DNA of 64,000 nucleotides, taken from contig CAMYKS010000031.1 of assembly GCA_947259115.1 (NCBI GenBank), forward strand, positions 48,936-112,935, written 5' to 3'. Numbering within the stretch: the stretch's first letter is position 1; the number at the start of each line of letters is the position of its first letter. This DNA is from an uncultured Desulfobulbaceae bacterium (GTDB lineage: Bacteria; Desulfobacterota; Desulfobulbia; Desulfobulbales; BM004). The translations under genes and the position numbers were made by a program. Below the pieces are notes generated by a model. The model saw nothing but the letters and a program-made list of their open reading frames with translations, was not told the DNA's origin and did no database searches. This document shows positions 43,646 to 64,000 of this stretch, piece by piece.

Positions 43646-45928
43646 TTAGATCCAGTTCTGCAGCAGTTTTTCAGCTTTCTCACGTTCCGGAAATTCTGCA
43701 TTTTGTTCCAGGCACTTGCTTAGTTCCTCCTTGGCCTCGGTCATTCTGCCCTTGGCCCGCAGGGCTAAAACCAGGTAATAGCGAAATGTAGGCTGGTCCG
43801 GGCGGGCATTGACTGCCTGTTCAAACTGGGAAAGTGCCAGGTCATATGACTTTCTTTTATAGTGGATCCACCCGAGGGTGTTGGAGATATGGGGGTCTTC
43901 AGGATACTTCTCCTTGGCTATCAGGCCTAAGCGCATGGCTTCCCCCAGGTCCCCGTTTTCTTCATTGGCAATGAGCCAGGCCAGATTATTGGCAGCCACA
44001 ACATTATTCGGGGCAATAGCAAGAATTTTCATATAGGATTCTTTGGCTTTAATAAAGTCTCCAGCCTGTTCCTGAAGGGTAGCAAGACCCAAAAGCGGAG
44101 GCAGAAATGTCGGCTTTTGGGCTATCAGTTCCCGGTATTCAGCCATGGCCTCCTCGCCTTTTCCCAGGTGAGCAAGAAGACGCGCACTCAGCAAATAGGG
44201 CTGGGGCGCTTGCGGCACAAGCTCTTGGGTTTTTCTGAACAGCGACAAAGCTTCCTCCAGCCTGTTTTCCCGCATGTAAAGATTGCCGAGGAGCATCAGA
44301 TTCCCAGCATTTTCAGGGGTGATGTCGACCTGCTTCTGCACGCGCTGAAGCGCCTTTTCCTTCTCCTCTCTACTGAAATAGATTTCCACAAGGGAAGCCA
44401 GGGCCGGCGTACTTCCAGGTGCATTCTCAAGAATATACTCAAAGGTTTCAACAGCCTGGTCAGTTTGCTCCAATGCCATTTGGGTCCTGCCTTTCAGTTG
44501 CAGGACCTCAGTGTTCTCAGGCATGTATTGCAGGAGTGCATTGGCTGTTTTTAAGGCCGCGGTATACTCTTTTGCTGCAAACTGGGACTGACCGAGGACC
44601 AGGGCTGCGGTAAAATTATTAGGCATAAACCTGAGGGCGGTTTTGGATTCCTCCATGGCACCTGGAAAATCTCCCTGCAGAAAAAGCTGCCGCGCCTTTA
44701 AGATATGAACTTTTGCGTCGTTGGGCAACAGTTTGACCGCTTCATTAATTGAAGTGTTAAGCATTTCCAGCTCCATGCGGTCAAAATGGGCAAACGCCTT
44801 ATAATAATACGCTTTTCCCCATTTTGGATTTTCCTCAAGCAATACATCGAGGATTACCAGGGCTTCGGAACTCTTGCCCTCCATGAGAAACAGTTTAGCC
44901 TTTACCAGGTTTGCCTGGGCATGCTTTTTGTTGCCCTGCAGTATTTCATTAACTGCCTTTTCTGCCTCCGCAAGCTTTCTCTGTTCAATGTAGAAGTCAG
45001 CTATAACCGCCTTGATATCATCAGGGTTTTCTGCCTTTGTAAGTGCCAGTTTATAAGTAGCTTCAGCCTCATCAGTACGTCTGAGGCTCTGGTAGAAATT
45101 CCCTAGAATAATATAAAGGCTGGAGTTGTCTGGAGACACTGCAACGGCTTTTTTAATGCTTTCTTCTGCTTTTTGGGTATCTCCCTGGCTGAGATACAGT
45201 TCAGCCATTACCAGGTGGGGTTCAGGCATTTCAGGAAACTTTTCAACCATTTCTTTGAGCAGTGTTTCACTCTTGGTCAAATCGGACTGACTTTTATAGA
45301 AGCTGAGAAGAGCCTGATAGTTTTGCAGTTTATCCGGTGCCAATTCTTTCGCCTTGAGCAGGGCTTTTTCAGCCTGGTGAAAATTCTGCTGCTGGGCCAG
45401 AAGGTTTGCCTTAATGAGGTAGAGGCGGTCCGAATCCGGGTTAAATTGCAAGGCCAGGTTGATTGATGCATGGGCAAGTTCGGCATTGCCTTCCTGCAGC
45501 GCGAGGTTTGCTTTCAGGATTAAAGCATCAATATTTGTCGGCTCCAGTGCCAGGATTGTATCGACATGCTTTTGGCTGTCAGCCCATTGCTTTGCCAGAA
45601 AGTAAAATTCAGCGGTTTTAACCTGGGCGTCGAGATTATGCGGATCTAGGTCGGTAACCCGTTTGAATTGACCGAACGCACCTTTCAGATCACTGCTGTT
45701 AAGATATGCAAGCCCCAATTGATAGCGGGCATCGGCAAATTTGGGATCAATCTGCACGGCATTTTTAAATTCAAGGATTGCAGCGCCCGTATCTCCCTTC
45801 TCATGGTATTCCATACCCTTCTGATAGTGGGCGTTTTTTTTCTCATCCGCACTGGAGCAACTGAGAAGCAGAAAAAGAATGAACATACAAACAATTACGC
45901 TGCCTGGAAAAGATAATCGACTCTTCAT
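43646..45928 (-). CDS. PEP-CTERM-system TPR-repeat lipoprotein (PrsT-type)
   Basis: A 760-residue lipoprotein: short basic start, hydrophobic stretch and lipobox FLLLSC (Cys22-24 region). The rest is about 20 tetratricopeptide units (AILEFKNAVQIDP, ALIVxxxLLEENP-like repeats through NNLAWLIANEENGDLGEAM and AKEKYPEDPHISNTLGWIHYK). This matches the TIGR02917 family found next to exosortase/PEP-CTERM loci. ATG 45928 has AAGGA 9 bases upstream; the frame extends 34 codons further but would bury the lipobox. It is paralogous to 47596-49923 and divergent from the PEP-CTERM gene. Confidence 0.9.
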   Translation of the reverse strand: MKSRLSFPGSVIVCMFILFLLLSCSSADEKKNAHYQKGMEYHEKGDTGAAILEFKNAVQIDPKFADARYQLGLAYLNSSDLKGAFGQFKRVTDLDPHNLDAQVKTAEFYFLAKQWADSQKHVDTILALEPTNIDALILKANLALQEGNAELAHASINLALQFNPDSDRLYLIKANLLAQQQNFHQAEKALLKAKELAPDKLQNYQALLSFYKSQSDLTKSETLLKEMVEKFPEMPEPHLVMAELYLSQGDTQKAEESIKKAVAVSPDNSSLYIILGNFYQSLRRTDEAEATYKLALTKAENPDDIKAVIADFYIEQRKLAEAEKAVNEILQGNKKHAQANLVKAKLFLMEGKSSEALVILDVLLEENPKWGKAYYYKAFAHFDRMELEMLNTSINEAVKLLPNDAKVHILKARQLFLQGDFPGAMEESKTALRFMPNNFTAALVLGQSQFAAKEYTAALKTANALLQYMPENTEVLQLKGRTQMALEQTDQAVETFEYILENAPGSTPALASLVEIYFSREEKEKALQRVQKQVDITPENAGNLMLLGNLYMRENRLEEALSLFRKTQELVPQAPQPYLLSARLLAHLGKGEEAMAEYRELIAQKPTFLPPLLGLATLQEQAGDFIKAKESYMKILAIAPNNVVAANNLAWLIANEENGDLGEAMRLGLIAKEKYPEDPHISNTLGWIHYKRKSYDLALSQFEQAVNARPDQPTFRYYLVLALRAKGRMTEAKEELSKCLEQNAEFPEREKAEKLLQNWI

Positions 45929-46133
45929 TTTGGGATCCTTGGTAGAAGTTTCCTCATGGGAAAAATTATTGATGTTGCCGACAGGCCATTCGTGTATTTT
46001 AAATATGCAATTTAAACATTCCGGGCCCATTTTTCAGTTTAAAATAATCAAATGAATATAGAGAGTTACTCCTAGCTCTTTTAATAAGAGGTATTTTTGT
46101 ATACCCGTTTCACTTTTCTTTGGCAAGCATATC

Positions 46134-46238
46134 CTAGGAGCCTGTCAGAGAATTACTAATCTACTGCAAAAGCGAGAGAATCGGCTCAAATTTCCGTAAA
46201 TTTTCTTTAAATAGCGCTGCTATTCGCATCAATTTCTC
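46134..46238 (-). mobile_element. Truncated MITE copy (right part, inverted)
   Basis: From CTAGGAGCCTGTCAGAGAAT onward, this follows the reverse complement of the complete element at 4316-4482 through the core (AAATAGCGCTGCTATTCGCATCAA), then diverges. The other terminal repeat is lost. It lies about 200 bases upstream of the sigma-54 promoter of the PEP-CTERM gene. Confidence 0.8.
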
Positions 46239-46437
46239 TGTTGGTATTTATTTTCATTCTACCTGTTCAAAACATTTTTTAAACGCCCCCTGAAAATTCC
46301 GGATTCCTGGAATGCGGAATTCGGTTTGCCGGAATTTTTCGCATACCCTCAAAGAACAGCTTCCATTTTGACAATAAATTTTTAATAACATGCTGAAATT
46401 TATTAATATAATTTATATTGCCCTTTAGTTTGATTTC

Positions 46438-46453
46438 TGGCACATTTATTGCT
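46438..46453 (+). promoter_or_regulatory. Sigma-54 (RpoN) promoter of the PEP-CTERM gene
   Basis: TGGCAC (46438-46443), five bases, then TTGCT (46449-46453) matches the -24/-12 consensus exactly, with GG and GC 12 bases apart. The predicted transcript start is near 46464, giving a leader of about 40 bases to the ATG at 46506. PEP-CTERM genes in other bacteria are controlled by the PrsK/PrsR system with RpoN, so this fits. No PrsR-like activator lies in the window. Confidence 0.85.
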
Positions 46454-46505
46454 TATTATTTATACTGATACGATGCATTGCGTCTTTAGCTCAATTTAGG
46501 ATATT

Positions 46506-47273
46506 ATGAAAAACAAAAATTTATTACCATTATTGATTGCCTCACTGATATTTGTAGCGGTCCCATCAGCCCTCCTGGCTGCTGTGAGCCCCCCAACATT
46601 CTATTTCAGTGTGATAAATAACGATCCTGCCCCTTCCCAAACCATCAAAGACGCTCTGAGCAGCCAGCTATATGTCGAAGTTATTGATGAAGGTGAATTT
46701 TCTGTAACATTCAGTTTTCATAATTATAATGAAACCGGAACAACTACTCCTATGGTAGTGACAAGTATCTATTTTGATGACGAACCTTTGCCTCATCTTC
46801 TTGATTATGCAAGTCCAACGATTACAAATTACACAGGAACTGATTATGTAATAAGCACTAAAACGAATGACGATCTGCCTGCCGGAAATCCAATAAATTT
46901 TGAGGCATCCGGTGCTTACGTCCCCGAGAACCCATCACCCACTTGGGGTATCAACGAGGAGGCATCTGATCATGAGGGCAACCCGGTTGAACAGCTCGAT
47001 ATTAGTTTTATGTATAAACCGATGGAAAATACCAACACTCTTTATAAATACGACGATTTAATTACCGCCCTTGAAAATGGCTCTGTGGATATTGGCATGC
47101 ATGTCCAGGCCATAGGAATTTACGGCGGCAACAGTTTATCGGTGCATCTCACCGGTGGCGGCGGACCAAGTCCCGCCCCGCTCCCTACTCCCGAACCCAC
47201 TACCATGCTGCTGCTTGGCACTGGTTTAGCAGGTATTGCAGGCGCAACACGAAGGCGCAAAAAACTGCAATAA
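46506..47273 (+). CDS. PEP-CTERM sorting-domain protein
   Basis: A 255-residue exported protein. The signal peptide is MKNKNLLPLLIASLIFVAVP (cleavage near LLAA). The mature Ser/Thr/Asn-rich region ends in a PEP-CTERM tail: PEP at 229-231, hydrophobic stretch (TMLLLGTGLAGIAGA) and basic RRRKK. Exosortase would cut the tail and release or anchor the protein on the surface, usually in a biofilm matrix. AGGAT precedes the ATG. It has a sigma-54 promoter, a good terminator, and TPR lipoprotein genes on both sides. Confidence 0.93.
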   Translation: MKNKNLLPLLIASLIFVAVPSALLAAVSPPTFYFSVINNDPAPSQTIKDALSSQLYVEVIDEGEFSVTFSFHNYNETGTTTPMVVTSIYFDDEPLPHLLDYASPTITNYTGTDYVISTKTNDDLPAGNPINFEASGAYVPENPSPTWGINEEASDHEGNPVEQLDISFMYKPMENTNTLYKYDDLITALENGSVDIGMHVQAIGIYGGNSLSVHLTGGGGPSPAPLPTPEPTTMLLLGTGLAGIAGATRRRKKLQ

Positions 47274-47595
47274 TAAATCTTCTCTTTCTCCATTCTCCGG
47301 GCAGGATCAATTGCTAATGATCCTGCCTCTCTTATTTGTGCTCAAAACACATTGTGTCTTTCCCGGCTCTCTGCGCTTGAAAAATTTCGCCCCCTGACCC
47401 TTTTAAAATCTTCGAGCCTTTTTCGAGCCTTTATTGTAATGGGGCAATATCTACCTTCCCTGCACTGTAGCAAAGCATCCGTTCAATTAATTTCTATTCT
47501 TATGCAAAAGAAAAATCTTTATAGTAAACTGATCATGGAATTTACCGAAAACATTCTAGAGTTCACTTAACTAAAATGAAAGGCTTTCACTGCTA
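47274..47595. other. Spacer between PEP-CTERM gene and second TPR gene
   Basis: It holds the terminator at 47300-47330. A 72-codon frame at 47352-47570 has no ribosome site and a composition unlike its neighbours, and I reject it. The last 100 bases are AT-rich and probably contain the promoter of the TPR gene; no sigma-54 site is visible there. Confidence 0.45.
47300..47330 (+). terminator. Strong terminator after the PEP-CTERM gene
   Basis: GGCAGGATCA (47300-47309) pairs perfectly with TGATCCTGCC (47318-47327), a 10-bp stem with an 8-base loop, followed by TCTCTTATTT. It separates the PEP-CTERM transcript from the TPR gene downstream. Confidence 0.75.
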
Positions 47596-49923
47596 ATGAA
47601 CATATTTAGATTTCTCCTCCACCGCATAAAAGCAGTGTCTGTATCAGCTCTAACGCTCATTCTCCTCTTTTCCCTATTGGGAGCAGCCGGCTGTACCAGA
47701 CCTGAGGACCTGGCCCCCGCCCATTATGACAAAGGGGTAAACCTTTTACAGGTTGGGGACTACAAGGCTGCAATTATTGAATTAAGAAATGCCTTGCAGC
47801 TTGATCCGCGTTTATCAGAGGCCCATTACCAGTTGGGCCTGGCGTATATAGGAATAGATGATGCAGTCAACGCCTACCGCCACCTGGAAATGGCATCCCA
47901 GGTTGATCCTTTAAATGTCGATGCCATAACCAAGGCTGCGGAAATGCTGTTCCAGGGCAATGAATTGGATGAAAGCCGAAAAAGACTGAAGAAAGCCCTG
48001 GACCTGGACCCTGACTACGTTAATGCATTGATACTTGCCGCGAACATGGAACTGCAGGCAAAACATTTGAATGAGGCCGAAACGTACATTGAAAAAGCCC
48101 ATAAACTTGATCCAGACCTCGACAGGGTATATTTGGCAAAAGCCAACATATATCTGGCCAAAAAAAACTATGACAATGCAGTGGAATCAATTGAAAAGGC
48201 CCTGGAAATAAATCCGAAAAATGAAGCGGCTTACAGAGCTCTGACAATTTATTGGATTGCCACCAACAACCTGAGTGAAGCGGAAAAGACTCTGCAGAAG
48301 ATGTTGGCAACTTTTCCAAATTCGCCACTGCCGCATCTTGAGATGGCTAAAATCCAGGAACTCAAAAACGATCTTACAGGGGCGGCCACAAGCCTCCAAA
48401 AAGCAATTGAAAAAGATCCACGGGACCCTGAAGTCCATGTCATAGAGGCACGGTTTTATGAAAAACATGGTGAACTGCAAAAAGCAGAGTCTTCTTTTGT
48501 AAAGGCCGTCAGCGTTGCCGCTAAACCCGATGATTACCGGGCAGTTCTGGCGGATCATTACTTCAACAGCAAAAAGTATGCTTTGGCCGGAGAACAGGTG
48601 GAACAGGTTATTGCTAAATATCCTGAGCATATGTACGCCAATTTCGTAAAAGCCAAACTTTTGCTTGAAAAAGAAGACAGCATTAATGAAGCAATTGCAC
48701 TGCTTGAAAAACTCGCGCTGCAAAACCCGCAATGGAGCGAAGTTTTATTTTACACGGCCAGGGCCTATTTCAAACTGCATGAAATTGACAGGGCCTTGAA
48801 CGCCATTGAAAAAGCGGTTGATCAAGCGCCCGGCAATCCGGACTACAGGTTGCTGCTGGCACATCTTTTATATAGTAAGGGAGAGTTTGAGCAGGCTTTG
48901 GTTGAAGTAAAAATTGCCTTAAGGATGAAGTCGGGCAGTTATGCTGCAGCAATTCTGTATGGAAAATTACTTTACATGACGGAGTCATACCCTCAGGCCC
49001 TGGAATTCTACAAAAATTTGGATAGTGTCAAACCAAATGATTTTGAGATACTGCAGTATCTTGGTCTCAGCCAAATGGCTGTGGAGGACTACGGCAATGC
49101 CAGGAAGACCCTGCAAAAAGCTGTTTCTGTAAACAAAGGCTATACTCTGGCCCTGGAAGCGTTGGTGAATATACTGATCGTACAAAACCATCAAACCAGG
49201 GCCATATCTCTCCTTGATGATCAGATCGAGGCAACCCCATTGTCACCAAAGTTATTATTACTCTACGGGACTTTGCTCTTTAATAATGGCAGGCTTGAAG
49301 AAGCGCTCACCGCATTTCGGCAGGTACAGGAAATAGCTCCCGATACCCCGTCGGCTTACATGATGGAAGCCATTATTTTAAAGCAGCTTGGAGACCTTGA
49401 TGCGGAAATTGCCAACCGCTATAGGGACCTTGCTCACAGTAAAAGTGTTGACCCTGCATCACAGATGGTTCTGGCCGGCCTCCTTGAAATAACAGGTAAC
49501 ACTGAAGGGGCAAAAGATTCGTACAGAAGGGTTCTGGAGCTCTCTCCCGGATTCCCTGCAGCAGCGAACAATCTCGCCTGGCTGCTGGCAAACGATGGCA
49601 ATCCGGATACTCTGGATGAGGCAATGAATCTGGCCCAGATTGCCAAAGAAAAAGATCCCACCGATCCATATATTACCGACACGCTAGGCTGGGTGCATTA
49701 CAAGCAGGGGCACTACTATGCCGCCGCCCTGGAATTCCGGCATGCAATTGCCAATTCGCCGACAACTGCCCAGTATTATTATCATCTGGCCCTGGCATTA
49801 GAGGGGCAGGACAAAAAGCAGGATGCATTGCGCGCGGTAAAAAAGAGTCTTGCTGCCGGTAAAGCATTTCAAGATAGGGATAAGGCAGAAGCATTGTATA
49901 AAAAGCTGAGGGCTGGCAATTAA
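47596..49923 (+). CDS. PEP-CTERM-system TPR-repeat lipoprotein (PrsT-type), second copy
   Basis: A 775-residue lipoprotein: hydrophobic segment (VSALTLILLFSLLGAAGC) with a lipobox ending at Cys33, then about 20 TPR units (IELRNALQLDPRLSEAHYQLGLAY to NNLAWLLANDGNPDTLDEAM, IAKEKDPTDPYITDTLGWVHYK, in part). It shares order and C-terminal wording with 43646-45928, so the two are paralogues around the PEP-CTERM gene. TIGR02917 proteins are thought to help assemble or export the polymer with which PEP-CTERM proteins associate. Confidence 0.9.
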   Translation: MNIFRFLLHRIKAVSVSALTLILLFSLLGAAGCTRPEDLAPAHYDKGVNLLQVGDYKAAIIELRNALQLDPRLSEAHYQLGLAYIGIDDAVNAYRHLEMASQVDPLNVDAITKAAEMLFQGNELDESRKRLKKALDLDPDYVNALILAANMELQAKHLNEAETYIEKAHKLDPDLDRVYLAKANIYLAKKNYDNAVESIEKALEINPKNEAAYRALTIYWIATNNLSEAEKTLQKMLATFPNSPLPHLEMAKIQELKNDLTGAATSLQKAIEKDPRDPEVHVIEARFYEKHGELQKAESSFVKAVSVAAKPDDYRAVLADHYFNSKKYALAGEQVEQVIAKYPEHMYANFVKAKLLLEKEDSINEAIALLEKLALQNPQWSEVLFYTARAYFKLHEIDRALNAIEKAVDQAPGNPDYRLLLAHLLYSKGEFEQALVEVKIALRMKSGSYAAAILYGKLLYMTESYPQALEFYKNLDSVKPNDFEILQYLGLSQMAVEDYGNARKTLQKAVSVNKGYTLALEALVNILIVQNHQTRAISLLDDQIEATPLSPKLLLLYGTLLFNNGRLEEALTAFRQVQEIAPDTPSAYMMEAIILKQLGDLDAEIANRYRDLAHSKSVDPASQMVLAGLLEITGNTEGAKDSYRRVLELSPGFPAAANNLAWLLANDGNPDTLDEAMNLAQIAKEKDPTDPYITDTLGWVHYKQGHYYAAALEFRHAIANSPTTAQYYYHLALALEGQDKKQDALRAVKKSLAAGKAFQDRDKAEALYKKLRAGN

Positions 49924-50061
49924 ATCAGAAGATGATTTCAGGGATTCCGCCTGTTTTATGCCTCAACAAAACCACCAGGACAACAATTGCAGATACCTTG
50001 CGGCTCAGGTTAAAAAATCGCAGCACCAATCCTTATATTAAATTTCCAGGGCTGCTTTGCG

Positions 50062-51948
50062 TTATGTTAGAAGCCGTCGCCACAACCCGAACATCATTAA
50101 ACCCCACAATGGTGTGCCATTGTTTTCCTGCATTTTTTGGTGCCTGTTCCATAATCCTTGAACATATTGTTTATTAAAATATTCGCTTAACCCGGACCCC
50201 GAAGCAAACAGGGCATCATGGGCCAACTCCTTGAGTTCGCCACGCAACCAGCTATCAAGGGGCACGCTGAATCCCTGCTTTTTACGATGGAGTATTTCAT
50301 GCGGCAGCCGGTCCCCATTCATTTTCTTTAGAATATATTTCGATTCACTCCCATGCAGTTTCAGGTTCGACGGCAGGCGGGCCGCATATTCCATCACCTT
50401 GTGATCCAGGATCGGCGCCCTCACCTCCAGTGAGTGCGCCATGCTCATGCGATCCACCTTGACCAGAATATCTTCCGGCAAATAACTTTTAATATCCACA
50501 TACTGCACCCGGGTCGTGGGATCAGGATTATGGTTTCTGGCAAAATGCGAAGTAATAAAATGCTGCGGACCAACACCATCGGTCTGGGCAGCAAAATCAG
50601 GTGTGTACAGGAGTCTTTTTGCCTCCGGTTTGAAATAAAAAGACATGTCCCGGAAGTAGGCCTGCTCATGTTGCAGAGAAAGATTGGTCAAAAACATTTT
50701 AAGCCTGAGGGGGCGCGGCATGAAATCCGCCCTGGGATATATGGAGGCCAATGGACCAAGAATTCCGCGGCGCAAAAAGTATGGAAGCAGCTTTCTGATA
50801 TTGCTTTCAAGCCGGTTCATGGAATAGCGCTGCACATATCCGGCAAAGGTTTCGTCACCGCCGTCTCCGGAGAGAGCCACCGTAACTTTCTGCCGGGCCA
50901 TTTTGGATACATACCAGGTAGGTAAAGCAGATGAATCGGCAAATGGTTCATCAAAATGCCACACCATCTTTTCAATTATATCCAGGGCATCCGGCCTGAC
51001 AACAAACTCCGTATGGTCGGTATGGTAGCGTTTTGCCACTACAGCTGCATATTCCAGTTCATTGAACCGCTTGTCATCAAAACCTATGGCAGCGGTCTTA
51101 ATTGGCGTACCACCCTGCAAAGACATGGAAGCTACGACTGCACTGGAATCCACGCCGCCGCTCAGGAACGCTCCCAGCGGGACATCGCTGATCATGCGCA
51201 GACGCACCGCTTCATCAAACACTTCCTGCAATTCTGCTACGGCCCTGCCCTCTTCAATGTTTTCAGGGGCATTGTTCATGTCAACATCCCAATACGCCTG
51301 CTGCGTAAATGTGCCCGGTGTGCAGACCGCCATGTGGGCCGGCTCCAACTTGCGAATCCCTTTAAATATACTCAGTGGTGAGGGCACGTAACCAAGGCTG
51401 CAATAAGCATCCAGGGCGTTCGGGTCAATTTCCCTTGGAATCGAAGGGTCGGCCAGCAGGGCTTTCAGCTCCGAGCCGAAGACCAGCCTGTTATCGTTGC
51501 TGAAGTAGTATAAAGGTTTTTTGCCGACCCGGTCGCGGATCAGCAGCAGCTTGCGCTTGTTTGCGTCCCACAGAGCTATGGCAAACATGCCGCGCAGACG
51601 CGCAACAAAATGTTCACCCCATTGCCGATAGCCATGCAGCAATACCTCGGTATCACTTTTAGTACGAAACAGATGGCCGCAACTTTCCAGCTCTTTTCGC
51701 AGTTCAAGAAAATTGTAAATCTCACCATTGAACACCACGTGCAGAACACCATCATCTGTGGACATGGGCTGTTCGCCGGTATGCAGATCGATAATGGCCA
51801 GGCGCCGGTGCCCCAGGCCGATGGAGTTGTCAATATAAATACCACTGCCATCGGGACCGCGATGGATCATGGTATTATTCATGCGCCCCAGCAAATTTCG
51901 ATCTACCGGTGCACCGTTCCTGTTATAGATTCCGCAGATGCCGCACAT
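50062..51948 (-). CDS. asnB: Asparagine synthetase-type amidotransferase, exosortase-A associated
   Basis: A 628-residue two-domain enzyme. The N-terminal Ntn glutaminase starts with the nucleophile Cys2 (MCGICGIYNR), with HRGPDGSG and the NGEIYN loop. The C-terminal ATP-pyrophosphatase synthetase domain has LGAFLSGGVDSSAVVASM and ALSGDGGDETFAGY. The C-terminal part (MAHSLEVRAPILDHKVMEYA, KKQGFSVPLDSW) and length fit the XrtA-system amidotransferase subgroup (TIGR03108), which probably amidates a uronic acid or similar sugar. It is the last gene of the long minus-strand cluster. Confidence 0.9.
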   Translation of the reverse strand: MCGICGIYNRNGAPVDRNLLGRMNNTMIHRGPDGSGIYIDNSIGLGHRRLAIIDLHTGEQPMSTDDGVLHVVFNGEIYNFLELRKELESCGHLFRTKSDTEVLLHGYRQWGEHFVARLRGMFAIALWDANKRKLLLIRDRVGKKPLYYFSNDNRLVFGSELKALLADPSIPREIDPNALDAYCSLGYVPSPLSIFKGIRKLEPAHMAVCTPGTFTQQAYWDVDMNNAPENIEEGRAVAELQEVFDEAVRLRMISDVPLGAFLSGGVDSSAVVASMSLQGGTPIKTAAIGFDDKRFNELEYAAVVAKRYHTDHTEFVVRPDALDIIEKMVWHFDEPFADSSALPTWYVSKMARQKVTVALSGDGGDETFAGYVQRYSMNRLESNIRKLLPYFLRRGILGPLASIYPRADFMPRPLRLKMFLTNLSLQHEQAYFRDMSFYFKPEAKRLLYTPDFAAQTDGVGPQHFITSHFARNHNPDPTTRVQYVDIKSYLPEDILVKVDRMSMAHSLEVRAPILDHKVMEYAARLPSNLKLHGSESKYILKKMNGDRLPHEILHRKKQGFSVPLDSWLRGELKELAHDALFASGSGLSEYFNKQYVQGLWNRHQKMQENNGTPLWGLMMFGLWRRLLT

Positions 51949-51979
51949 GGTATTTTATTTATAAAAAAATGGAAGACTC

Positions 51980-53098
51980 TCAGGCAAGGGGTTCATACAG
52001 TTTCTCATAGCTCTGCACCATAGACCTGACAGTAAATCTTTCCTCGAACTTCATTCTCGCTTTCACACCCATATCATGACGTTTCTTTTTGTCACGGATC
52101 AACTCTGAAATAGCAGCAGCAAGTTCATCTGAATCATCACTCCGGATTATTATGCCGTCAGTATTATCTTGAATAATCTCAGGAATGCCGCCAACACTTG
52201 TTGCCACGATTGGTTTTCCTGCAGCCATGGCTTCCAGGATGGTCAGGGGCAGTCCTTCACTGAGAGAACACAGAACAAAAATGTCAAGCACTGAAAGGAG
52301 CCGTGGGATATCATTCCTGGTTCCAAGAAAGAGTATATTGTTCTGCAGTTGTTCTTCAGAGACAAGCTCTTCAAGCTCCTGCCGCAAGGTGCCGTCACCT
52401 ATTACTATCAGGACAACATTTGGATAAAGGGCTGAAACCTTTTTCATGGCTTTAATCAGGCATCTATGGTTCTTGATGGGATCCAGTCGCGCCACTATAC
52501 CGATTATTTTTGCTGCCGCCGATATGTTCAATTCCCTGGTAATCTCTTGACGATCAAACTCAGTGGTGAATGGTTCACCGTCTATACCGTTGTAAATTGT
52601 CGTAATAATTTTGGGATCTATCCATTCTTTATGCACCAAGTTCAGTTTGAGGAATTCCGCCACCACCACTATCCGGTCAGTCAGGTATGAGAGGATTTTA
52701 TCCATTATCCTGACTTTAATATTCGGGGCAACGTCCCGCGCATGCTCCGTATAAATGATGCGCCCTACCCCGGCTATCTTCCCTGCCAGGACACCGTAAA
52801 AAAATGCTGTCGAGTTATGGAGGTGGATAATATCAATTTTATCTTTCTTCAGCAACGCTGCAAGCTTGAAGGGGTAGAAAAGATCTATGCCCGGCTTCCT
52901 TTTGAGCAAGGTGGTTTTTGTGTCGTTAAGGAGATTGTTATGCAGCTCGCCAAGTGTATCAAAACAACAGACGGAAGGGAGGAATTTCTTCCTGTTCAAT
53001 TGATTCACCAAGGCCACAACCATGTATTCCAACCCTCCCACATCGAGCCCCTGGACCAGGTGCAGGACTTTACAGGGATTTCTCACTTCTGCAGTCAT
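51980..53098 (-). CDS. Glycosyltransferase family 4
   Basis: A 372-residue GT-B enzyme. The N-terminal acceptor domain has VLHLVQGLDVGGLEYMVVAL, as in the PEP-CTERM-associated sugar transferase group (TIGR03088). The C-terminal GT1 donor domain has IGIVARLDPIKNH and CSLSEGLPLTILEAMAAGKPIVATSVGGIPEII with the E-x7-E. It transfers an unknown sugar during polymer synthesis at the cytoplasmic side. Its ATG overlaps the stop of the O-ligase gene (TGATG), so the two are coupled. Confidence 0.9.
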   Translation of the reverse strand: MTAEVRNPCKVLHLVQGLDVGGLEYMVVALVNQLNRKKFLPSVCCFDTLGELHNNLLNDTKTTLLKRKPGIDLFYPFKLAALLKKDKIDIIHLHNSTAFFYGVLAGKIAGVGRIIYTEHARDVAPNIKVRIMDKILSYLTDRIVVVAEFLKLNLVHKEWIDPKIITTIYNGIDGEPFTTEFDRQEITRELNISAAAKIIGIVARLDPIKNHRCLIKAMKKVSALYPNVVLIVIGDGTLRQELEELVSEEQLQNNILFLGTRNDIPRLLSVLDIFVLCSLSEGLPLTILEAMAAGKPIVATSVGGIPEIIQDNTDGIIIRSDDSDELAAAISELIRDKKKRHDMGVKARMKFEERFTVRSMVQSYEKLYEPLA

Positions 53099-54369
53099 CA
53101 GGCCGGCAACTCGCCCTGATTGATCTTTTCTAATTCCCTTTGTGCAAAAACCTTTACAAGCACCCCTATGATCACCAGGTGGTAGAACAGGTCGAAATAG
53201 GCACGGCCGAGAAATACTCCTCCTGCCATATACGCCAAAATGCTTACCTGGATCATGTCGGCATAGTTGCAGATCCAGCTGCAGCTCTTGATGTTTTTAA
53301 ATTGCCGTTTAAGTTTCTGCATGGATGCGAGAGTTGAGAGCAGGAGAGCCATAAAGAAACCGAATGCGATAAATCCATGTTCTTGCAGCACCTCAAAATA
53401 TATGCTGTGAACATCACCGGCCATTATTGCGCCGGGATATGGCATATATTTTATCCTGTAAACGGTCAGGTAAGTATCAAAACCTCCTCCGGTCAGGGGT
53501 CTGTCCTTAGCAATATTCCAGGCCATTTTCCAGGCATTGATCCTACCCATTGCAGAAGCATCTTCTTCAAATGTTTCTATTGTTTCCATTCGGTCAAACC
53601 ACTTGTCAGCTATGAAAAATGGAGCGCTGAAAATAGCTGCAGCAACAAGAATACCGGCAATAAATCGTCTTTGGGATTTCAACAGGAGTAAAATAACAAC
53701 AACTGCCAGGGCGAGAAAGCCGCCGCGTCGGAAAGTAAAAATAACTGAAATTATACTGCCCAGAAAACAGGCATAAAGTGAAAACTTCAGCCATTTTTTA
53801 CTTTCGTTTCTGGCCTGAAAAAACAAAAGCGGCAGAGTCATGTTTAAGGCAAGGGCAAAATCCCCCTCCCCACCTATGAAAGAATTATCCGGCCCCCTGA
53901 CATTATGCACTCCACCTGTGAGTATGGTAAAAATGGCGCCCTTCAGGCCGAGTAGGCCCAGGGAAAATGCTATGACCAGAACCAGGTAGCGCAGCTTGTC
54001 TTTATTATTGATCAGAGGAAGCGTTATAAGCGCCATTAACAGAACTTTAGAGGTCTTTTGCCACATCAACCATGATACAGAAGGATTGAAAGCGGTAAAT
54101 GATGTTATAGTAAACAATATCCAAAGAATAAGGATGAACACCGTTTCCCTTTCCATGTGAAACTTGTCCTTGTCCTCGGTGAACAGGTACCCTGCAAGGA
54201 CAGCGATTGCAACTATCTGGGCAAATGGAAAATCTGTTGCAGCTCCCCAGGAAAACTTGTGTGGATTCATGTAGCCCAGCCATGAGAAAGTCAGGATTCC
54301 TATCCATGGCTGAGTGAAACAAATGGGCAGGAGACTGAATACAATTATAAATAAAATGGTGGCGCGCAT
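53098..54369 (-). CDS. O-antigen-ligase-like membrane protein, exosortase-A system associated
   Basis: A 423-residue integral membrane protein with about ten predicted helices. The N-terminal region (TQPWIGILTFSWLGYMNPHK) is typical of putative O-glycosylation ligases tied to exosortase A (TIGR03097/DUF5935). The Wzy_C loop includes GRINAWKMAWNIAKDRPLTGGGF and VHSIYFEVLQEHGF. It probably joins lipid-linked glycan to protein or to growing polymer in the periplasm. It overlaps the GT4 gene by one base. Confidence 0.9.
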   Translation of the reverse strand: MRATILFIIVFSLLPICFTQPWIGILTFSWLGYMNPHKFSWGAATDFPFAQIVAIAVLAGYLFTEDKDKFHMERETVFILILWILFTITSFTAFNPSVSWLMWQKTSKVLLMALITLPLINNKDKLRYLVLVIAFSLGLLGLKGAIFTILTGGVHNVRGPDNSFIGGEGDFALALNMTLPLLFFQARNESKKWLKFSLYACFLGSIISVIFTFRRGGFLALAVVVILLLLKSQRRFIAGILVAAAIFSAPFFIADKWFDRMETIETFEEDASAMGRINAWKMAWNIAKDRPLTGGGFDTYLTVYRIKYMPYPGAIMAGDVHSIYFEVLQEHGFIAFGFFMALLLSTLASMQKLKRQFKNIKSCSWICNYADMIQVSILAYMAGGVFLGRAYFDLFYHLVIIGVLVKVFAQRELEKINQGELPA

Positions 54370-54456: not shown

Positions 54457-55413
54457 TTAGCCATCCGCGCTGTTCCCGTACCCCATGCCTTCCATTATTC
54501 CGCTGATTATCGGCATTATCCTTTCAATGCGCTCCCTGTTCTCCTCCTTCCATTTGTCCAGACGCGGCCGGGAGAATGCATTATAGGGTTTTGCAGAAAG
54601 GTTTTCACAATGTTTCCGAATTTCATCCGTATAGCTCATATCTAATTGGGTAAATGCCCTGCGGAATGTTTCTACGGGCTTATTCAGGAGATCTTCGTAG
54701 ACTATTTCCACCCACTGGTCTGCCGGTATTATTTTCTTAGCGTTCAAAACCGCCCTGTTTGCCTCGATCCATTGTACCGCGCATACCTCCTCAATAGATT
54801 TTGAGGTAAAATCCCGCCAACCGCTGAAAAGGAAGAAACACCAGCGGTTGTACCTGCCGTTGTCAATTTCCACCCTGGCCGGCAGATCGTGCGACCAGGC
54901 GCCGTATTCATCCGGGCGTCCCCAGCCGTGGATCATGGAATTTATATTGTCCCTGCCGTCACGTCTAATGAAGACGAAAAAGGCATTGGGAAACATGGCG
55001 TGCAGATAGGGTATCCTGAAGCAGTTCTGATTGGCCTTGTCCAGGAATCTTTTTGCACCAAGATAGCGGTAGAAAAATTTCGGCACCTCCCGCCTATCCT
55101 TCCCGGTAACATCTTTTTCGGTGAGAATGTGGGAATTCCAGTTATTTTCCTCCATAGGGTGTAGCATATTCCAAAAATCATGGGATTCCTTGCGCATGGT
55201 AGCCAGTTCCGGCGCCATTCCAAGAACATTATAAACCGCCGTGGTGCCGGACCGTGAACAACCTACCACAAATACCGGGCGCTTAAATTCCGGTTGCAGC
55301 AGCGGGTATACCAGATCCCGCCAACGCCACAAAAGCCTTTTCCCATAATAAGCAAGGGTCTTTCGCACCTTCACCATGAAAGTCGCATTATCTCTTGATT
55401 CTTGTTTACTCAT
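54457..55413 (-). CDS. PAPS-dependent sulfotransferase
   Basis: A 318-residue cytoplasmic sulfotransferase. The 5'-phosphosulfate loop is GCSRSGTT (51-58) and the 3'-phosphate site is in FFVFIRRDGRDNINSMIHG. Both match the Sulfotransfer_3-like fold. It would sulfate a sugar of the surface polymer with PAPS from the APS-kinase gene at the window end. Its start overlaps the preceding GT2 gene by 8 bases, so they are coupled. Confidence 0.88.
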   Translation of the reverse strand: MSKQESRDNATFMVKVRKTLAYYGKRLLWRWRDLVYPLLQPEFKRPVFVVGCSRSGTTAVYNVLGMAPELATMRKESHDFWNMLHPMEENNWNSHILTEKDVTGKDRREVPKFFYRYLGAKRFLDKANQNCFRIPYLHAMFPNAFFVFIRRDGRDNINSMIHGWGRPDEYGAWSHDLPARVEIDNGRYNRWCFFLFSGWRDFTSKSIEEVCAVQWIEANRAVLNAKKIIPADQWVEIVYEDLLNKPVETFRRAFTQLDMSYTDEIRKHCENLSAKPYNAFSRPRLDKWKEENRERIERIMPIISGIMEGMGYGNSADG

Positions 55414-58687: not shown

Positions 58688-59485
58688 TTACTGATGTTGG
58701 TTCCCAGCAATTCGACTGACAACCCGAGATGCATAATATTTCAAGGGCTGGAAAACGCTTGCTTCATTAGTGCCAAACTTAAGTTTTTGTTTTACTTTCC
58801 ATAATGAATCATTGCCGAAGATTTCAATGCGTCTGAGTTTAAGCATATCAGTACTGCTGTTGTTAAATCCGGAACGCGTGGTACATGCAGATTTAAATCC
58901 TGCTTCTTTAACAAGTTTTACAACTTGCTCATTTAACAACCCATAAGGGTAAGCAAAGTGCTTCACTTCTGCACCTAAATTCTCCTCAATAATCGCTTTG
59001 GACTCGGAGATTTCCTTGCGAGCCGTGTCCCGGCCAATTTCTGGAAGGCAAACATGATTTAATGTGTGCGCCCCAAAACCAACGAGATCTTGCATTTGCT
59101 TAATTTGATACCAGGATAAAAGCTTGCGCTCGGGAAATCCCCGGGAACTCATCCAAGAGTTTTTTTCGCCCAACATACCGGCAGTTAGGAATATTGTAGA
59201 TGGGATGGAATATTTTTGTAATATTGGATAGCCGTTGATAAAATTATCCTCAAACCCGTCATCAATCGTTATCACAACGCTATTTTCAGGTAACGGAATA
59301 CGTTGTATATGATGCGTAACTATATCGTCAAGTGAAACTGCATTGCAGTTTTGTCGAATAAACCGCATATGTTTCTCAAATAACCCTGGAGTACAGGCGT
59401 ATTTTATTTCTGAGTCACTGCGCGGTGTTGAAATCATATGGTACATAAGTATAAGAAAACGGTTTTCAGCCATTTCACTGACCAT
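58688..59485 (-). CDS. Polysaccharide deacetylase (NodB domain)
   Basis: A 265-residue cytoplasmic-looking CE4 enzyme without a clear signal peptide. Motifs are LILMYHMIS, VVITIDDGFEDNF (catalytic Asp pair), FGAHTLNHVCL (metal His) and KHFAYPYGLLNE. It would remove an acetyl group from a precursor or the polymer. Its start overlaps the GT2 gene upstream by 11 bases, so it is coupled to it. Confidence 0.88.
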   Translation of the reverse strand: MVSEMAENRFLILMYHMISTPRSDSEIKYACTPGLFEKHMRFIRQNCNAVSLDDIVTHHIQRIPLPENSVVITIDDGFEDNFINGYPILQKYSIPSTIFLTAGMLGEKNSWMSSRGFPERKLLSWYQIKQMQDLVGFGAHTLNHVCLPEIGRDTARKEISESKAIIEENLGAEVKHFAYPYGLLNEQVVKLVKEAGFKSACTTRSGFNNSSTDMLKLRRIEIFGNDSLWKVKQKLKFGTNEASVFQPLKYYASRVVSRIAGNQHQ

Positions 59486-60410
59486 CCGAATTATTCAAAA
59501 GACGAAAATAGATTTTTTCCGGCAGTAATGATGGAAGTATATATTTTAATTCTCCAGGTTTCCAGTAACCGCTCCAAAGCAAAACACGGAACAGCTTTTG
59601 AGCTGAAACCAAATCCCGCTGCCAGTATGCTTCAAATGCTTTTTCATATAAAAATTGATGCCGCAACCTGCGTCTGGTGGTTTTATTTATATGTTTGACG
59701 CACCCGGGGTTGTTATGAATAAAGTCTCGGCGTACTCGCCAGGAATCGAGAACTTGACGCCATTTGACAGCAGAAATTTGCCCGGTGTCGTGCCAACGGT
59801 AATAAGCCAGTACCCTTCCGACCTGAACAATGTTATGCGTGACTGCAGATAAACGCAGCCACAGGTCGTAATCCATAGAGGTAAAATAGCGCTCTGAAAA
59901 TCCACCTACGCGTTCAAGGACAGAACGTCGGGTCAGAGCGGCATGGATTGGCCATGGGCAATTGCTGAGAAAAGCTTCACTGATGTCACCTTCTTCATAG
60001 ACTGGCGGGATATATGGCTCAGTGCCCTTTTGGCGGCCGACATTCTGCCAGCCGCAATATGCAATATCAGCTCGCTGTTTTTCGATAACGTCTGCTAGGC
60101 TGCTCAAACAGTCTTTTTCCCAGTAATCATCAGCATCAAGAAATGCGATGAAGTTACCTTTAGCCTGCTTTAAACCCAAGTTGCGCGCCGGGTAAGGTCC
60201 CTGGTTTTCCTGTGTAAAAAATTTTATTTGCTGGGGATATCTTGCCGCTAGACTTTCAAGGACTTGCGGGCTGTCATCATCGGACCCGTCATCAACCACG
60301 ATAAGTTCAACCGACACATGCTTTTGTTCGAGTACGGATTGTACAGCTTGTTCAACAAATTCACGGGCATTATAACAAGGCATAATAACGGATATCAGTT
60401 GAGTATCCAT
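59475..60410 (-). CDS. Glycosyltransferase family 2
   Basis: A 311-residue GT-A enzyme: ISVIMPCYNAREFVEQAVQS, VVDDGSDDDSPQVLE, the donor-site NFIAFLDADDYWEKD and the W-rich block TSMDYDLWLRLSA. The closest pattern is the large bacterial GT2 group that adds hexoses to lipid-linked precursors. It is coupled to the deacetylase gene by an 11-base overlap. Confidence 0.9.
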   Translation of the reverse strand: MDTQLISVIMPCYNAREFVEQAVQSVLEQKHVSVELIVVDDGSDDDSPQVLESLAARYPQQIKFFTQENQGPYPARNLGLKQAKGNFIAFLDADDYWEKDCLSSLADVIEKQRADIAYCGWQNVGRQKGTEPYIPPVYEEGDISEAFLSNCPWPIHAALTRRSVLERVGGFSERYFTSMDYDLWLRLSAVTHNIVQVGRVLAYYRWHDTGQISAVKWRQVLDSWRVRRDFIHNNPGCVKHINKTTRRRLRHQFLYEKAFEAYWQRDLVSAQKLFRVLLWSGYWKPGELKYILPSLLPEKIYFRLLNNSDGQ

Positions 60411-60800: not shown

Positions 60801-62144
60801 TTATACTATGGCAATACAACTATTTGTAAATGATTTTTTATTGTAGGTAAGGTCTTGTTTTGTATCACAATCCTTAACTTTCAGGCCAACTGCTCCAGCG
60901 ATTGCATGGGCTGCAGCAGTCTGCCACTCCATTGACTTTTCAATAGTCTTCATAGGCTCCGACTTCCCATCTGCAATGCTACACATCAATAAGGCCGTGT
61001 TAGTAACATTTCCAACATTTTTTCTCTGCCTATGCGATGCACCCTGCATGTTAAATTGCATCTCAGATGACTCAAAACTGCCTGTTTTAATTTGTTTAAG
61101 CTGCCGAAGTTCCGCCCCGGATTCACTGCAAAACGCCCCTTTGCCCAAAGTCCCGTAGAAAAGGGTACCAGTCAATGGGGCATGCACGACTCCCATATAG
61201 GGTTTATTATCCTCAATGAGCGCAATGTTTATCGTAAAGTTATTATCACCGGCTAAAAACGCCTCTTCATTTTCAAGGGGGTCTACCAGCCAGAAGTGGT
61301 TCAACTTGCGGCGCTCCAAGAAAGGTATGTCAGGGCTATGTGGAGATATCACAGGAATAGTTGGGCTGATGGCGGTCAGTCCGTCCACTATCCTTCTATA
61401 GGCTTGGATTGCCGCTAAATTCTGCGGGTTGTTACATATTGTATAACGACACCTGGCCAGGATTGATGAAAAAAATGAAGTTCCGGGGGACTTTTTCCTC
61501 GGCAAAAGATTCTTATTGCCATGTTTAACACAATAAGCTGTTAATAACTCCTCACCTGCATGACGTGCAATAGCAACAATGTCCTGGATGTCCATCCACC
61601 TGATCTGCGTCACGTTGGCTTTTGGAAAAGCAATATCGGGTATTGGTTTGTCAAGAAAAGGACAGAGTTTCTCCCAGCCATCACCTGCTATAATATCAAG
61701 AATCAGGAGGTCATGCGGCCTGTTCTGGAAATAATCAAGCACTGAATCGACAAATTTGTTATAGCCTTTTTTGAAAAGCTGCTCATCGAACACACTACAA
61801 CCGTATAAGTCCATGAATAGCTCTTTATGTGCTTCATTCTGCTTGTCATCAAGCTTTTGGGTGAATTGTTTTTTGCATGACTTCAGCCAACCGTTTGTTT
61901 CTCTGACAGTTAAAATGAATTTAGAATTGGGATACTCCCTATCCAATTCTTTATAAAAACTTGGAATCGGGGTGTCGGTAAAGGCGTCGTATTCAGCCAT
62001 AACCTTCCTGTCAATAGAGTTCAGGTCCCCGCGAGCATAGGTTTCAATACCCAGGTAATCCTTTGTCCTGCAGCCCAACAACTCAAGGGCACGGGCAAGG
62101 CTTGATGTTCCTGTTTTTGAAAGTCCGATTCCAAAAATCTTCAT
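60801..62144 (-). CDS. Sulfotransferase fused to a degenerate CysQ (PAP phosphatase-like) domain
   Basis: A 447-residue fusion. Residues 1-about 185 form a PAPS sulfotransferase (Sulfotransfer_4-like), with GLSKTGTSSLARAL (7-20) as the 5'-phosphosulfate loop and FILTVRETNGWLKSC for the 3' site. Residues about 190-447 align by eye with CysQ, the 3'(2'),5'-bisphosphate nucleotidase (FWLVDPL, FTINIALIEDNKPYMGVVHAP, YNKKSFTNSCIAI). Its metal-site residues are changed: EE becomes PH in PVISPHS (264-270), DPLDGT becomes DPLENE (288-293) and WDTAA becomes WQTAA (407-411). It may therefore sense or hold PAP rather than hydrolyse it. The gene is divergent from the APS-kinase gene. Confidence 0.82.
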   Translation of the reverse strand: MKIFGIGLSKTGTSSLARALELLGCRTKDYLGIETYARGDLNSIDRKVMAEYDAFTDTPIPSFYKELDREYPNSKFILTVRETNGWLKSCKKQFTQKLDDKQNEAHKELFMDLYGCSVFDEQLFKKGYNKFVDSVLDYFQNRPHDLLILDIIAGDGWEKLCPFLDKPIPDIAFPKANVTQIRWMDIQDIVAIARHAGEELLTAYCVKHGNKNLLPRKKSPGTSFFSSILARCRYTICNNPQNLAAIQAYRRIVDGLTAISPTIPVISPHSPDIPFLERRKLNHFWLVDPLENEEAFLAGDNNFTINIALIEDNKPYMGVVHAPLTGTLFYGTLGKGAFCSESGAELRQLKQIKTGSFESSEMQFNMQGASHRQRKNVGNVTNTALLMCSIADGKSEPMKTIEKSMEWQTAAAHAIAGAVGLKVKDCDTKQDLTYNKKSFTNSCIAIV

Positions 62145-62529
62145 GTATTTTTTTTAGTAGATAATGAATAACTTATAAGTTGGTAATGGGGGGGGGGCGA
62201 TAACTAATCATATTCAGATCATTTGCAAAAATCGGGGGCAGCCATATTTAAGCTCCCCAAAATCTTACATTTATAATTAATCATTGGATGCACTGTCAAT
62301 CAAAAACAAGTTGCTCATTGAACTGCAACAAATGAATTTTTATATTATGGGCAAAATTCTCTAAAGGTTTTATGTAGTCTCTCAGTATATGCAGCAGCAG
62401 AGAAAGCTCTGCCAGGATTTCATATAACTAGTTTTATATTTCAAATAAATGATATAAATTAACATCCGGTTATCGTTTCAAATTTTTTTTTATTTTTAAA
62501 AACATATTTTACCAGGAGAAAAATCACAG
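62145..62529. other. 385-bp divergent promoter region
   Basis: It holds the G10 tract at 62188-62197 and otherwise AT-rich sequence. It must carry promoters for both the sulfotransferase-CysQ fusion (leftward) and the APS-kinase gene (rightward). No further gene or clear hairpin is seen. Confidence 0.5.
62188..62197. repeat. Homopolymer of ten G residues
   Basis: An uninterrupted G10 (C10 on the coding strand of the leftward gene) lies 44-53 bases before the start codon of the sulfotransferase-CysQ fusion, in a promoter-like position. Such tracts slip during replication and can switch gene expression in other bacteria; here that is only a possibility. Confidence 0.7.
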
Positions 62530-64000
62530 ATGGGACATCTTATTGAGCCGCATGGAGGAAAGCTGGTTAATCTCTATTGTCCGCAAGATTTGGCTGACAG
62601 TCTCAAAAAGCAATCGATAAATTATTTTTCAATAGATCTGACCCCAAGACAACTTTTTGACCTGGAGCTTATTTTGAACGGGGGGTTTTCTCCCCTGCAG
62701 GGCTTCATGACCCAGGCGGAATACGAATCTGTTGTGGATAAAGAAGTTTTGCCCAATGGGCTGTGCTGGCCTATTCCGGTATATCTGGATATTTCGGAGG
62801 AAACGGCAAAGAATATCAGCCTTGAACAACCCATCGCCCTGCGGGATATGGAGGGTTTCCTGCTTGCCATAATCACTGTATCCGATATATGGCAGCCCGA
62901 TAAGCTCAAGGAGGCCAGGCAGATCTACGGGACGGAAAGCACCATTCATCCCAGCGTCGAAGAAATGTTGGATTCGGACAAGACGTATTGCCTCGGGGGC
63001 AAGCTTATCGGACTGGAGCAGCCGGTGCATTATGATTATAAAATGCTGCGCCTGAATCCTGTTGACAGCAGGGCCTTTTTTCAGCGCATGGGCTGGCGGC
63101 GCATCATGGCCTTTGATACTTACAAGCCGCTGCATAGTGCCCATAAGGAAATGGCGCTTCTGGCCGCACGGCAAAACAAGGTCAATATATTCATGCATCC
63201 CATTGTCGGGTTGACCCATCCTGGCGACATCGATCATTATGCCAGGGTGCGCTGCTTTGAGGCGATCATGAAAACATTCCCCGATGATTCGGTCATCTTT
63301 GGCTTGCTTCCCCTGGCAATGCGGATGGCCGGCCCTAAGGAGGCTCTCTGGCATGCAATAATCAGAAAAAACTACGGCTGCACCCATTTCATGGTATCTG
63401 CCGACCATGCCGACCCCTTTGCCTCTACAGGGCGTGATCTTTTTTATGCGTCCGGTGCTGCCCAGGAATATGTAGCCAAGCACGAGGATGCCACCGGGGT
63501 CAAAATGGTTGCCTTTAAAAAAATGGTCTATTTGCCCAACAAGGTTCAATATGTTCCTGTTGACCAGTGCAGCGAGGACGAAATGCAGTCCCTTGAACTT
63601 TCTGCCACCGAACTCAGAAGAAGACTTGCCTTCAACCTTGACATCCCGACCTGGTTTTCCCCTCCAGAGGTTGTCAAGGTGTTGAAAAAGGCATATCCTC
63701 CAAGATGCAGACAGGGATTGACCATTTTCCTGACCGGATTGTCAGGGTCCGGCAAATCAACCATTGCCAAGGTGCTGATGAGCCGGTTTATGCAGATGGG
63801 TGACCGACCTGTTACCCTGCTGGATGGAGATATTGTCCGCAGGAACTTGTCCAGCGAGCTCGGATTTTCCAAAAGAGATCGCGAGTTGAACATCATCCGC
63901 ATCGGCTTTGTGGCCAGTGAGATCACTAAGAACGGTGGTGTGGCTATCTGTGCACCGATAGCAGCCATAGCCAAATCCCGGCTCCATAATCGTCTGTTGA
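62530..64000 (+). CDS. cysC: APS kinase with degenerate N-terminal ATP-sulfurylase domain (3' end outside window)
   Basis: 490 codons without a stop run off the window. Residues about 1-390 align by eye with the sulfate adenylyltransferase of bifunctional Sat/CysC enzymes (LTPRQLFDLELILNGGFSPL, MHPIVG, LPLAMRMAGPKEALWHAIIR, ELRRRL). Its active-site motifs are altered: QTRNPxHxxH reads DTYKPLHSAH (196-205), and GRDHAG reads SADHAD (290-295), losing both key Arg. From about 398 the APS kinase is intact: P-loop GLSGSGKST (403-411), LLDGDIVRRNLSSELGFS, GGVAICAPIA. It would make PAPS for the nearby sulfotransferases. AGGAG lies about 12 bases before the ATG. Confidence 0.88.
   Translation, partial: MGHLIEPHGGKLVNLYCPQDLADSLKKQSINYFSIDLTPRQLFDLELILNGGFSPLQGFMTQAEYESVVDKEVLPNGLCWPIPVYLDISEETAKNISLEQPIALRDMEGFLLAIITVSDIWQPDKLKEARQIYGTESTIHPSVEEMLDSDKTYCLGGKLIGLEQPVHYDYKMLRLNPVDSRAFFQRMGWRRIMAFDTYKPLHSAHKEMALLAARQNKVNIFMHPIVGLTHPGDIDHYARVRCFEAIMKTFPDDSVIFGLLPLAMRMAGPKEALWHAIIRKNYGCTHFMVSADHADPFASTGRDLFYASGAAQEYVAKHEDATGVKMVAFKKMVYLPNKVQYVPVDQCSEDEMQSLELSATELRRRLAFNLDIPTWFSPPEVVKVLKKAYPPRCRQGLTIFLTGLSGSGKSTIAKVLMSRFMQMGDRPVTLLDGDIVRRNLSSELGFSKRDRELNIIRIGFVASEITKNGGVAICAPIAAIAKSRLHNRLL

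Follow-up and report, generated by a model that had tools for sequence, protein, structure and literature searches.

The stretch of DNA analyzed here (the window, 64,000 nucleotides) encodes a protein in which a sulfotransferase carries, as its C-terminal half, a relative of the PAP phosphatase CysQ, whose catalytic site appears to have been lost. The locus raises the question of what such a domain may do when it is attached to an enzyme that produces PAP.

Domain organization of the fusion protein

The preliminary description of this DNA had reported the fusion and quoted several of its motifs. The coordinates and motifs proved exact, all being present in the ORF at 60801-62144, and the fusion is real: the Pfam and NCBIfam scans recognize a Sulfotransfer_4 domain and a CysQ-like domain within one ORF of 447 aa, organized as follows:

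60801..62144, (-) strand: Sulfotransfer_4/pseudo-CysQ fusion gene, 447 aa, with the ATG at 62144
61605..62141, (-) strand: sulfotransferase domain, aa 2-180 (Pfam PF17784, 8e-34)
60804..61604, (-) strand: putatively dead CysQ-fold domain (inositol-monophosphatase superfamily), about aa 181-447 (TIGR01331, 1e-39; predicted fold)

In the Pfam scan of the window ORF, the Sulfotransfer_4 match extends over aa 2-179 (E 8e-34) and scores 117.8 bits, above the Pfam gathering cut-off of 22.8. The CysQ-like domain is joined to it directly, with Inositol_P matched at aa 245-438 (E 2e-21) and the NCBIfam CysQ model, TIGR01331, at aa 240-442 (E 1e-39). The latter match (136.6 bits) does not reach the equivalog cut-off of 228.8, and the three other fusions that were scored (L018, L019 and L026, see below) are likewise under it.

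The N-terminal half is a member of the Sulfotransfer_4 family (PF17784) with intact PAPS motifs, both in the 5' loop and in the 3'-phosphate-binding residues R81 and S89. Its relatives of known structure, as judged by sequence, are 5tiz, 9kf1 and the schistosome sulfotransferase SmSULT (4mua). The following elements were compared among the nine fusions described below:

62097..62126, (-) strand: 5'-PAPS loop GLSKTGTSSL, aa 7-16, kept in nine of nine fusions except for one G to A replacement
61974..61976, (-) strand: Asp57, invariant in the nine fusions and in the 24 sulfotransferase-only sequences compared
61878..61904, (-) strand: 3'-phosphate-binding pair Arg81...Ser89, invariant in nine of nine fusions

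Asp57 aligns near Asp91 of SmSULT, a residue that contacts the acceptor hydroxyl. Judging from these motifs, the sulfotransferase half looks functional.

A family of nine fusions

A search for other sulfotransferase-CysQ fusions recovered eight more, from genomes that belong to two or more bacterial classes, and none of the nine has an intact active site. In addition to the window protein, the family comprises L018 and L019, from one scan of genome contigs, and L026, L033, L046, L047, L050 and L106, from whole-genome searches. L018 and L019 derive from gammaproteobacterial metagenome-assembled genomes, and the window genome belongs to a different class, in which it is the only one of the 257 genomes searched to possess the fusion. 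The sampled genomes (369 of one class and 395 of the phylum of the window genome) represent only part of larger groups, as do those taken from the class of the L019 genome, and the searches of them revealed no fusion whose CysQ site is intact. All nine fusions retain a domain of about 240-290 aa, the CysQ part ending early in L046. The erosion of the domain is graded: L026 keeps DPLDG and GSA, and L106 is heavily eroded. One genome, G058, holds two members of the family (on contigs C12 and C252; L026 and L018), one of which is the best-preserved copy.

Among the matches listed from protein searches of plasmids and phages, all were confined to a single domain, and no record covered 80% of the query. 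A first scan of viral contigs found no relatives, and a second, alignment-based scan found 41, all of which match the sulfotransferase half. Those that were read as ORFs are sulfotransferase-only or fused to other domains, whereas the window protein adds the pseudo-CysQ domain. One such viral ORF (L074 1998-3290, 431 aa) combines Sulfotransfer_4 with a Stealth CR2 match, located after it, that does not reach its cut-off, and would represent another fusion of a sulfotransferase to a glycan enzyme; another (L059 1398-2516, 373 aa) has a weak methyltransferase match ahead of Sulfotransfer_4. In the titles and abstract openings of the literature searched, no sulfotransferase-CysQ fusion or pseudoenzyme fusion of this kind was found.

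The active site of the CysQ-like domain

The metal motif of the phosphatase family, D..EE..DPxDxT..D, takes the form D54..E79E80..D153PID156ST158..D317 in INPP1, where its residues are assigned to three metal sites and to a Thr, equivalent to T88 of CysQ, which activates water in the proposed mechanism (PMC7948987). We mapped the INPP1 motif onto CysQ by our own alignment and used E. coli CysQ as the site-by-site reference. In the window domain the motif reads A..PH..DPLENE..Q, owing to the following changes:

61410..61421, (-) strand: T-A-A-D motif lost, T38/D41 to N242/A245 (alignment to E. coli CysQ)
61338..61343, (-) strand: metal ligands lost, E64/E65 to P268/H269 (alignment to E. coli CysQ)
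61266..61283, (-) strand: DPLDGT to DPLENE, with D83 kept as D288, D86 replaced by E291 (conservative) and T88 by E293
60921..60923, (-) strand: metal ligand lost, D205 to Q408 (sequence alignments)

All three metal-binding motifs had been described as changed, which holds at the level of the motifs but not of every ligand, since D83 survives and D86 is replaced conservatively by Glu. A fourth changed element, absent from the preliminary description, is the T-A-A-D motif, and the nucleotide-binding loops are altered as well: R156, S181, K183 and R197, which we take, from the CysQ and Hal2p structures, to be nucleotide-binding residues, are also missing from the window domain.

The same sites are affected throughout the family. 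T38, D41, T88, D205, R156, S181 and K183 are retained in none of the nine fusions, E64 in one, E65 and D86 in three each, and D83 in eight; R197 is retained only in one, a member of uncertain alignment. The loop at 145-180 is eroded in most fusions, and the alignment of L106 is unsure within its eroded middle part. The absence of D41, T88 and D205 from all nine sequences agrees with the earlier proposal that the domain is catalytically dead. The acidic ligands do not appear to have simply shifted, because each motif is flanked on either side by anchored alignment and because the ligand columns are occupied by different replacements in the eight other fusions. Glu substitutes for D205 in five of the nine and for D86 in two, so that residual metal binding may be conceivable in several members. 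No fusion-specific new motif that would mark a new binding site was identified in the family.

The loss is concentrated in the site. Of 65 positions at which eight active CysQs are all identical, the 18 in the active site are kept, on average, in 1.9 of eight fusions, compared with 5.2 of eight for the remaining 47 (Mann-Whitney p 2e-5), in a comparison that predates the addition of L106 and in which the site positions (the metal motif and the nucleotide-lining loops) were our own choice. The loops were selected as those which line the nucleotide in known structures.

Predicted structure

A model built from 20 sequences has a mean pLDDT of 83 and superseded a three-sequence model with a pLDDT of 52. 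Its low-confidence regions are at about residues 217-237 and 355-376, the former coinciding with this feature:

61431..61493, (-) strand: low-confidence insert, about aa 218-238; in active CysQ, the segment before the T-A-A-D motif of metal site 3

The C-terminal half of the model matches CysQ of B. thetaiotaomicron (3b8b) with a Z score of 26.6 (233 residues, rmsd 4.4) and CysQ of M. tuberculosis (5djh) with a Z score of 20.8. The dead half is predicted to adopt the complete CysQ/inositol-monophosphatase fold. Because the structural aligner prints no residue pairs, the statement that no ligand has shifted is based on the sequence alignments. Retention of the fold, which had been proposed earlier, is in keeping with the family of nine, with the confident model and with the purifying selection described below. 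The domain would share fold and ancestry with CysQ, the 3'(2'),5'-bisphosphate nucleotidase (TIGR01331), from which it differs in its incomplete set of metal ligands, in the absence of the catalytic Thr and the nucleotide-binding residues, and in its fusion to a sulfotransferase.

Phylogeny and selection

In the tree of the CysQ domain the fusions form one clade with a support of 100/100 (100/99 with L106 added), which makes a single fusion event likely, after which the two domains would have been inherited or transferred together. The tree of the sulfotransferase domain groups the fusions in the same manner with weak basal support (59/92) and falls short, by itself, of proving one fusion event; the main groups agree between the two trees.

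The two halves have diverged to different extents, with identities between fusions of 56-77% in the sulfotransferase half and 25-49% in the dead half. The stand-alone CysQs of G059 and G063 share 77% identity, their dead domains 39%. Codon comparison of the two closest pairs, L026/L050 and L033/L047, gave dN/dS values of 0.24 and 0.28, respectively, for the dead half, against 0.08 and 0.13 for its sulfotransferase partner, all of which are rough since synonymous changes approach saturation. The dead domain has the faster evolution of the two, yet it is under purifying selection; in view of its fast divergence, part of it may be near-neutral.

Candidate PAP-clearing enzymes in fusion-bearing genomes

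Each of the two fusion-bearing genomes checked (G058 and G059) possesses a stand-alone CysQ that is over the cut-off and has an intact site, and a protein search found stand-alone CysQ-like ORFs in several genomes of the order of G059. In the window genome we found no CysQ over the cut-off; it contains an inositol monophosphatase whose metal motif is intact and an NrnA-like gene whose score is below its cut-off, PAP activity being disputed for the NrnA family (PMC9757072).

Gene neighborhood

The fusion gene is surrounded by genes for sulfation and for polysaccharide synthesis:

62530..64000, (+) strand: divergent sulfate adenylyltransferase/APS kinase gene, 571 aa, extending past the window end; GLSGSGKS P-loop, read from sequence
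59475..60410, (-) strand: GT2 glycosyltransferase; similar genes near the fusion in L018 and L019, by eye
58688..59485, (-) strand: polysaccharide deacetylase-like gene; a similar gene adjoins GT2 in L019
57778..58602, (-) strand: second sulfotransferase (Sulfotransfer_3, Pfam scan)
54457..55413, (-) strand: third sulfotransferase (Sulfotransfer_3, Pfam scan)
43646..54369, (.): XrtA/PEP-CTERM exopolysaccharide genes (NCBIfam)

The ATP-sulfurylase/APS-kinase gene is complete beyond the window, where it is followed by a Sulfotransfer_2-type gene and another sulfotransferase (read from sequence). The XrtA/PEP-CTERM stretch comprises PrsT-type TPR lipoproteins, a PEP-CTERM protein, an amidotransferase, a glycosyltransferase and an O-glycosylation ligase. 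The window member is thus set in an XrtA/PEP-CTERM exopolysaccharide cluster, a designation that applies to the window locus (NCBIfam), and this cluster differs from others of the type in combining several sulfotransferases with PAPS synthesis. A text search of the literature found no paper combining PEP-CTERM, sulfotransferase and exopolysaccharide.

Family scans at three loci and visual reading at six indicate a glycan-cluster setting. Among the scanned neighbors, Sulfotransfer_2 occurs in both L018 and L019, and GT2, WbsX and polysaccharide deacetylase in L019. In the ORF lists, read by eye, a glycosyltransferase-like gene as seen beside the L018 and L019 fusions is also present in L026, L046, L050 and L106, and a WbsX-like gene is near the fusion in L033, L047 and L106; the ORFs that lie downstream of the L047 fusion carry no assignment. 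A run of 10 G (62188-62197) is located 44-53 bases upstream of the fusion start codon, before the divergent ATP-sulfurylase gene; it is the only run of at least eight G in the window, and such runs are no commoner there than in shuffled sequences.

Proposed function and alternative explanations

We consider it fairly probable that the protein is a working polysaccharide sulfotransferase whose partner, once a PAP phosphatase, now serves a structural or acceptor-handling purpose without catalysis. The PAPS-dependent sulfotransferase would sulfate the polysaccharide, or a lipid-linked precursor, of the surrounding XrtA/PEP-CTERM exopolysaccharide cluster, with PAPS supplied by the adjacent ATP-sulfurylase/APS-kinase gene. 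The C-terminal half would descend from a CysQ PAP phosphatase that was joined once to the sulfotransferase; having lost catalysis and canonical PAP binding, it would support the sulfotransferase as a folded domain, whether by stabilizing it, by forming dimers or complexes (as is often the case for inositol-monophosphatase folds) or by holding the glycan acceptor. The analysis establishes the fusion, the loss of the site in all nine members, the retained PAPS motifs, the selection acting on the domain, the predicted fold and the gene setting; we infer the sulfotransferase activity, the cluster polysaccharide as substrate and precisely what the dead domain does. The dead copy is probably structural or substrate-holding, since nine versions are broken at the same catalytic site and yet the fold is kept, which is close to the scaffold alternative of the preliminary description. 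More tentatively, a PAP-phosphatase fold may have been converted, inside a sulfotransferase, to a module that binds the acceptor or serves assembly in the production of sulfated exopolysaccharides, giving rise to a pseudoenzyme family that spans bacterial classes.

The main rival, which appears unlikely but deserves serious consideration, regards the domain as the vestige of a former sulfotransferase-PAP-phosphatase fusion, kept only as a soluble, folded C-terminus for the sulfotransferase. Evolution that is relaxed relative to the sulfotransferase half (in identity, in dN/dS and in the G059/G063 pair), the loss of additional site residues in separate branches, with D86 surviving in three members, and the shortened L046 would all be expected of such a remnant, whereas persistent purifying selection, the preservation of a domain of about 240-290 aa in nine of nine fusions and the conservation of core positions while site positions go are at odds with it. 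The suggestion that the domain still binds PAP and regulates the attached sulfotransferase gains appeal from its CysQ ancestry and its physical link to a PAP-producing enzyme, but no fusion retains R156, S181 or K183, which do not vary among active CysQs, R197 is lost from eight, and the 145-180 loop is eroded in most; with the nucleotide-binding residues gone along with the metal ligands, a role as PAP sensor is highly improbable.

Even less credit can be given to a surviving phosphatase, either with a metal site reconstituted by Glu at the D86 or D205 position or with another substrate: the persistence of D83 in eight fusions and the Glu residues at D205 (five) and D86 (two) would be compatible with it, but none of the nine has T88 or D41, and eight of them are without the Glu that opens the EE pair. 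Finally, L018 and L019 come from metagenome-assembled genomes, in which assembly or binning may unite two genes or two organisms; such an artefact is refuted in practice by the independent recoveries, the nine fusions being found in separate genomes or contigs, several with similar gene settings, and the topoisomerase gene of the window contig showing about 84-91% identity to its counterpart in same-genus genomes.

Relation to known systems

Domains that have become pseudoenzymes are familiar from kinases and from some families of eukaryotic phosphatases; for pseudophosphatases with the inositol-monophosphatase fold, a literature search gave one paper. The use of an inositol-monophosphatase fold as an assembly part has a parallel in SuhB, which takes part in rrn antitermination without acting as a catalyst (PDB 6tqn); the active site of SuhB is preserved and the protein is unfused to any enzyme, whereas the window domain is fused to a sulfotransferase. 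The graded series from L026 to L106 allows catalytic loss after gene fusion to be followed, and the family may mark sulfated-exopolysaccharide clusters, where genes for sulfotransferases and PAPS synthesis occur together with XrtA/PEP-CTERM genes. The window genome also codes for a stand-alone Sulfotransfer_4 protein of 209 aa (G000 C10:204322-204936; L104 6308-6937), which is situated among glycosyltransferase- and methyltransferase-like ORFs.
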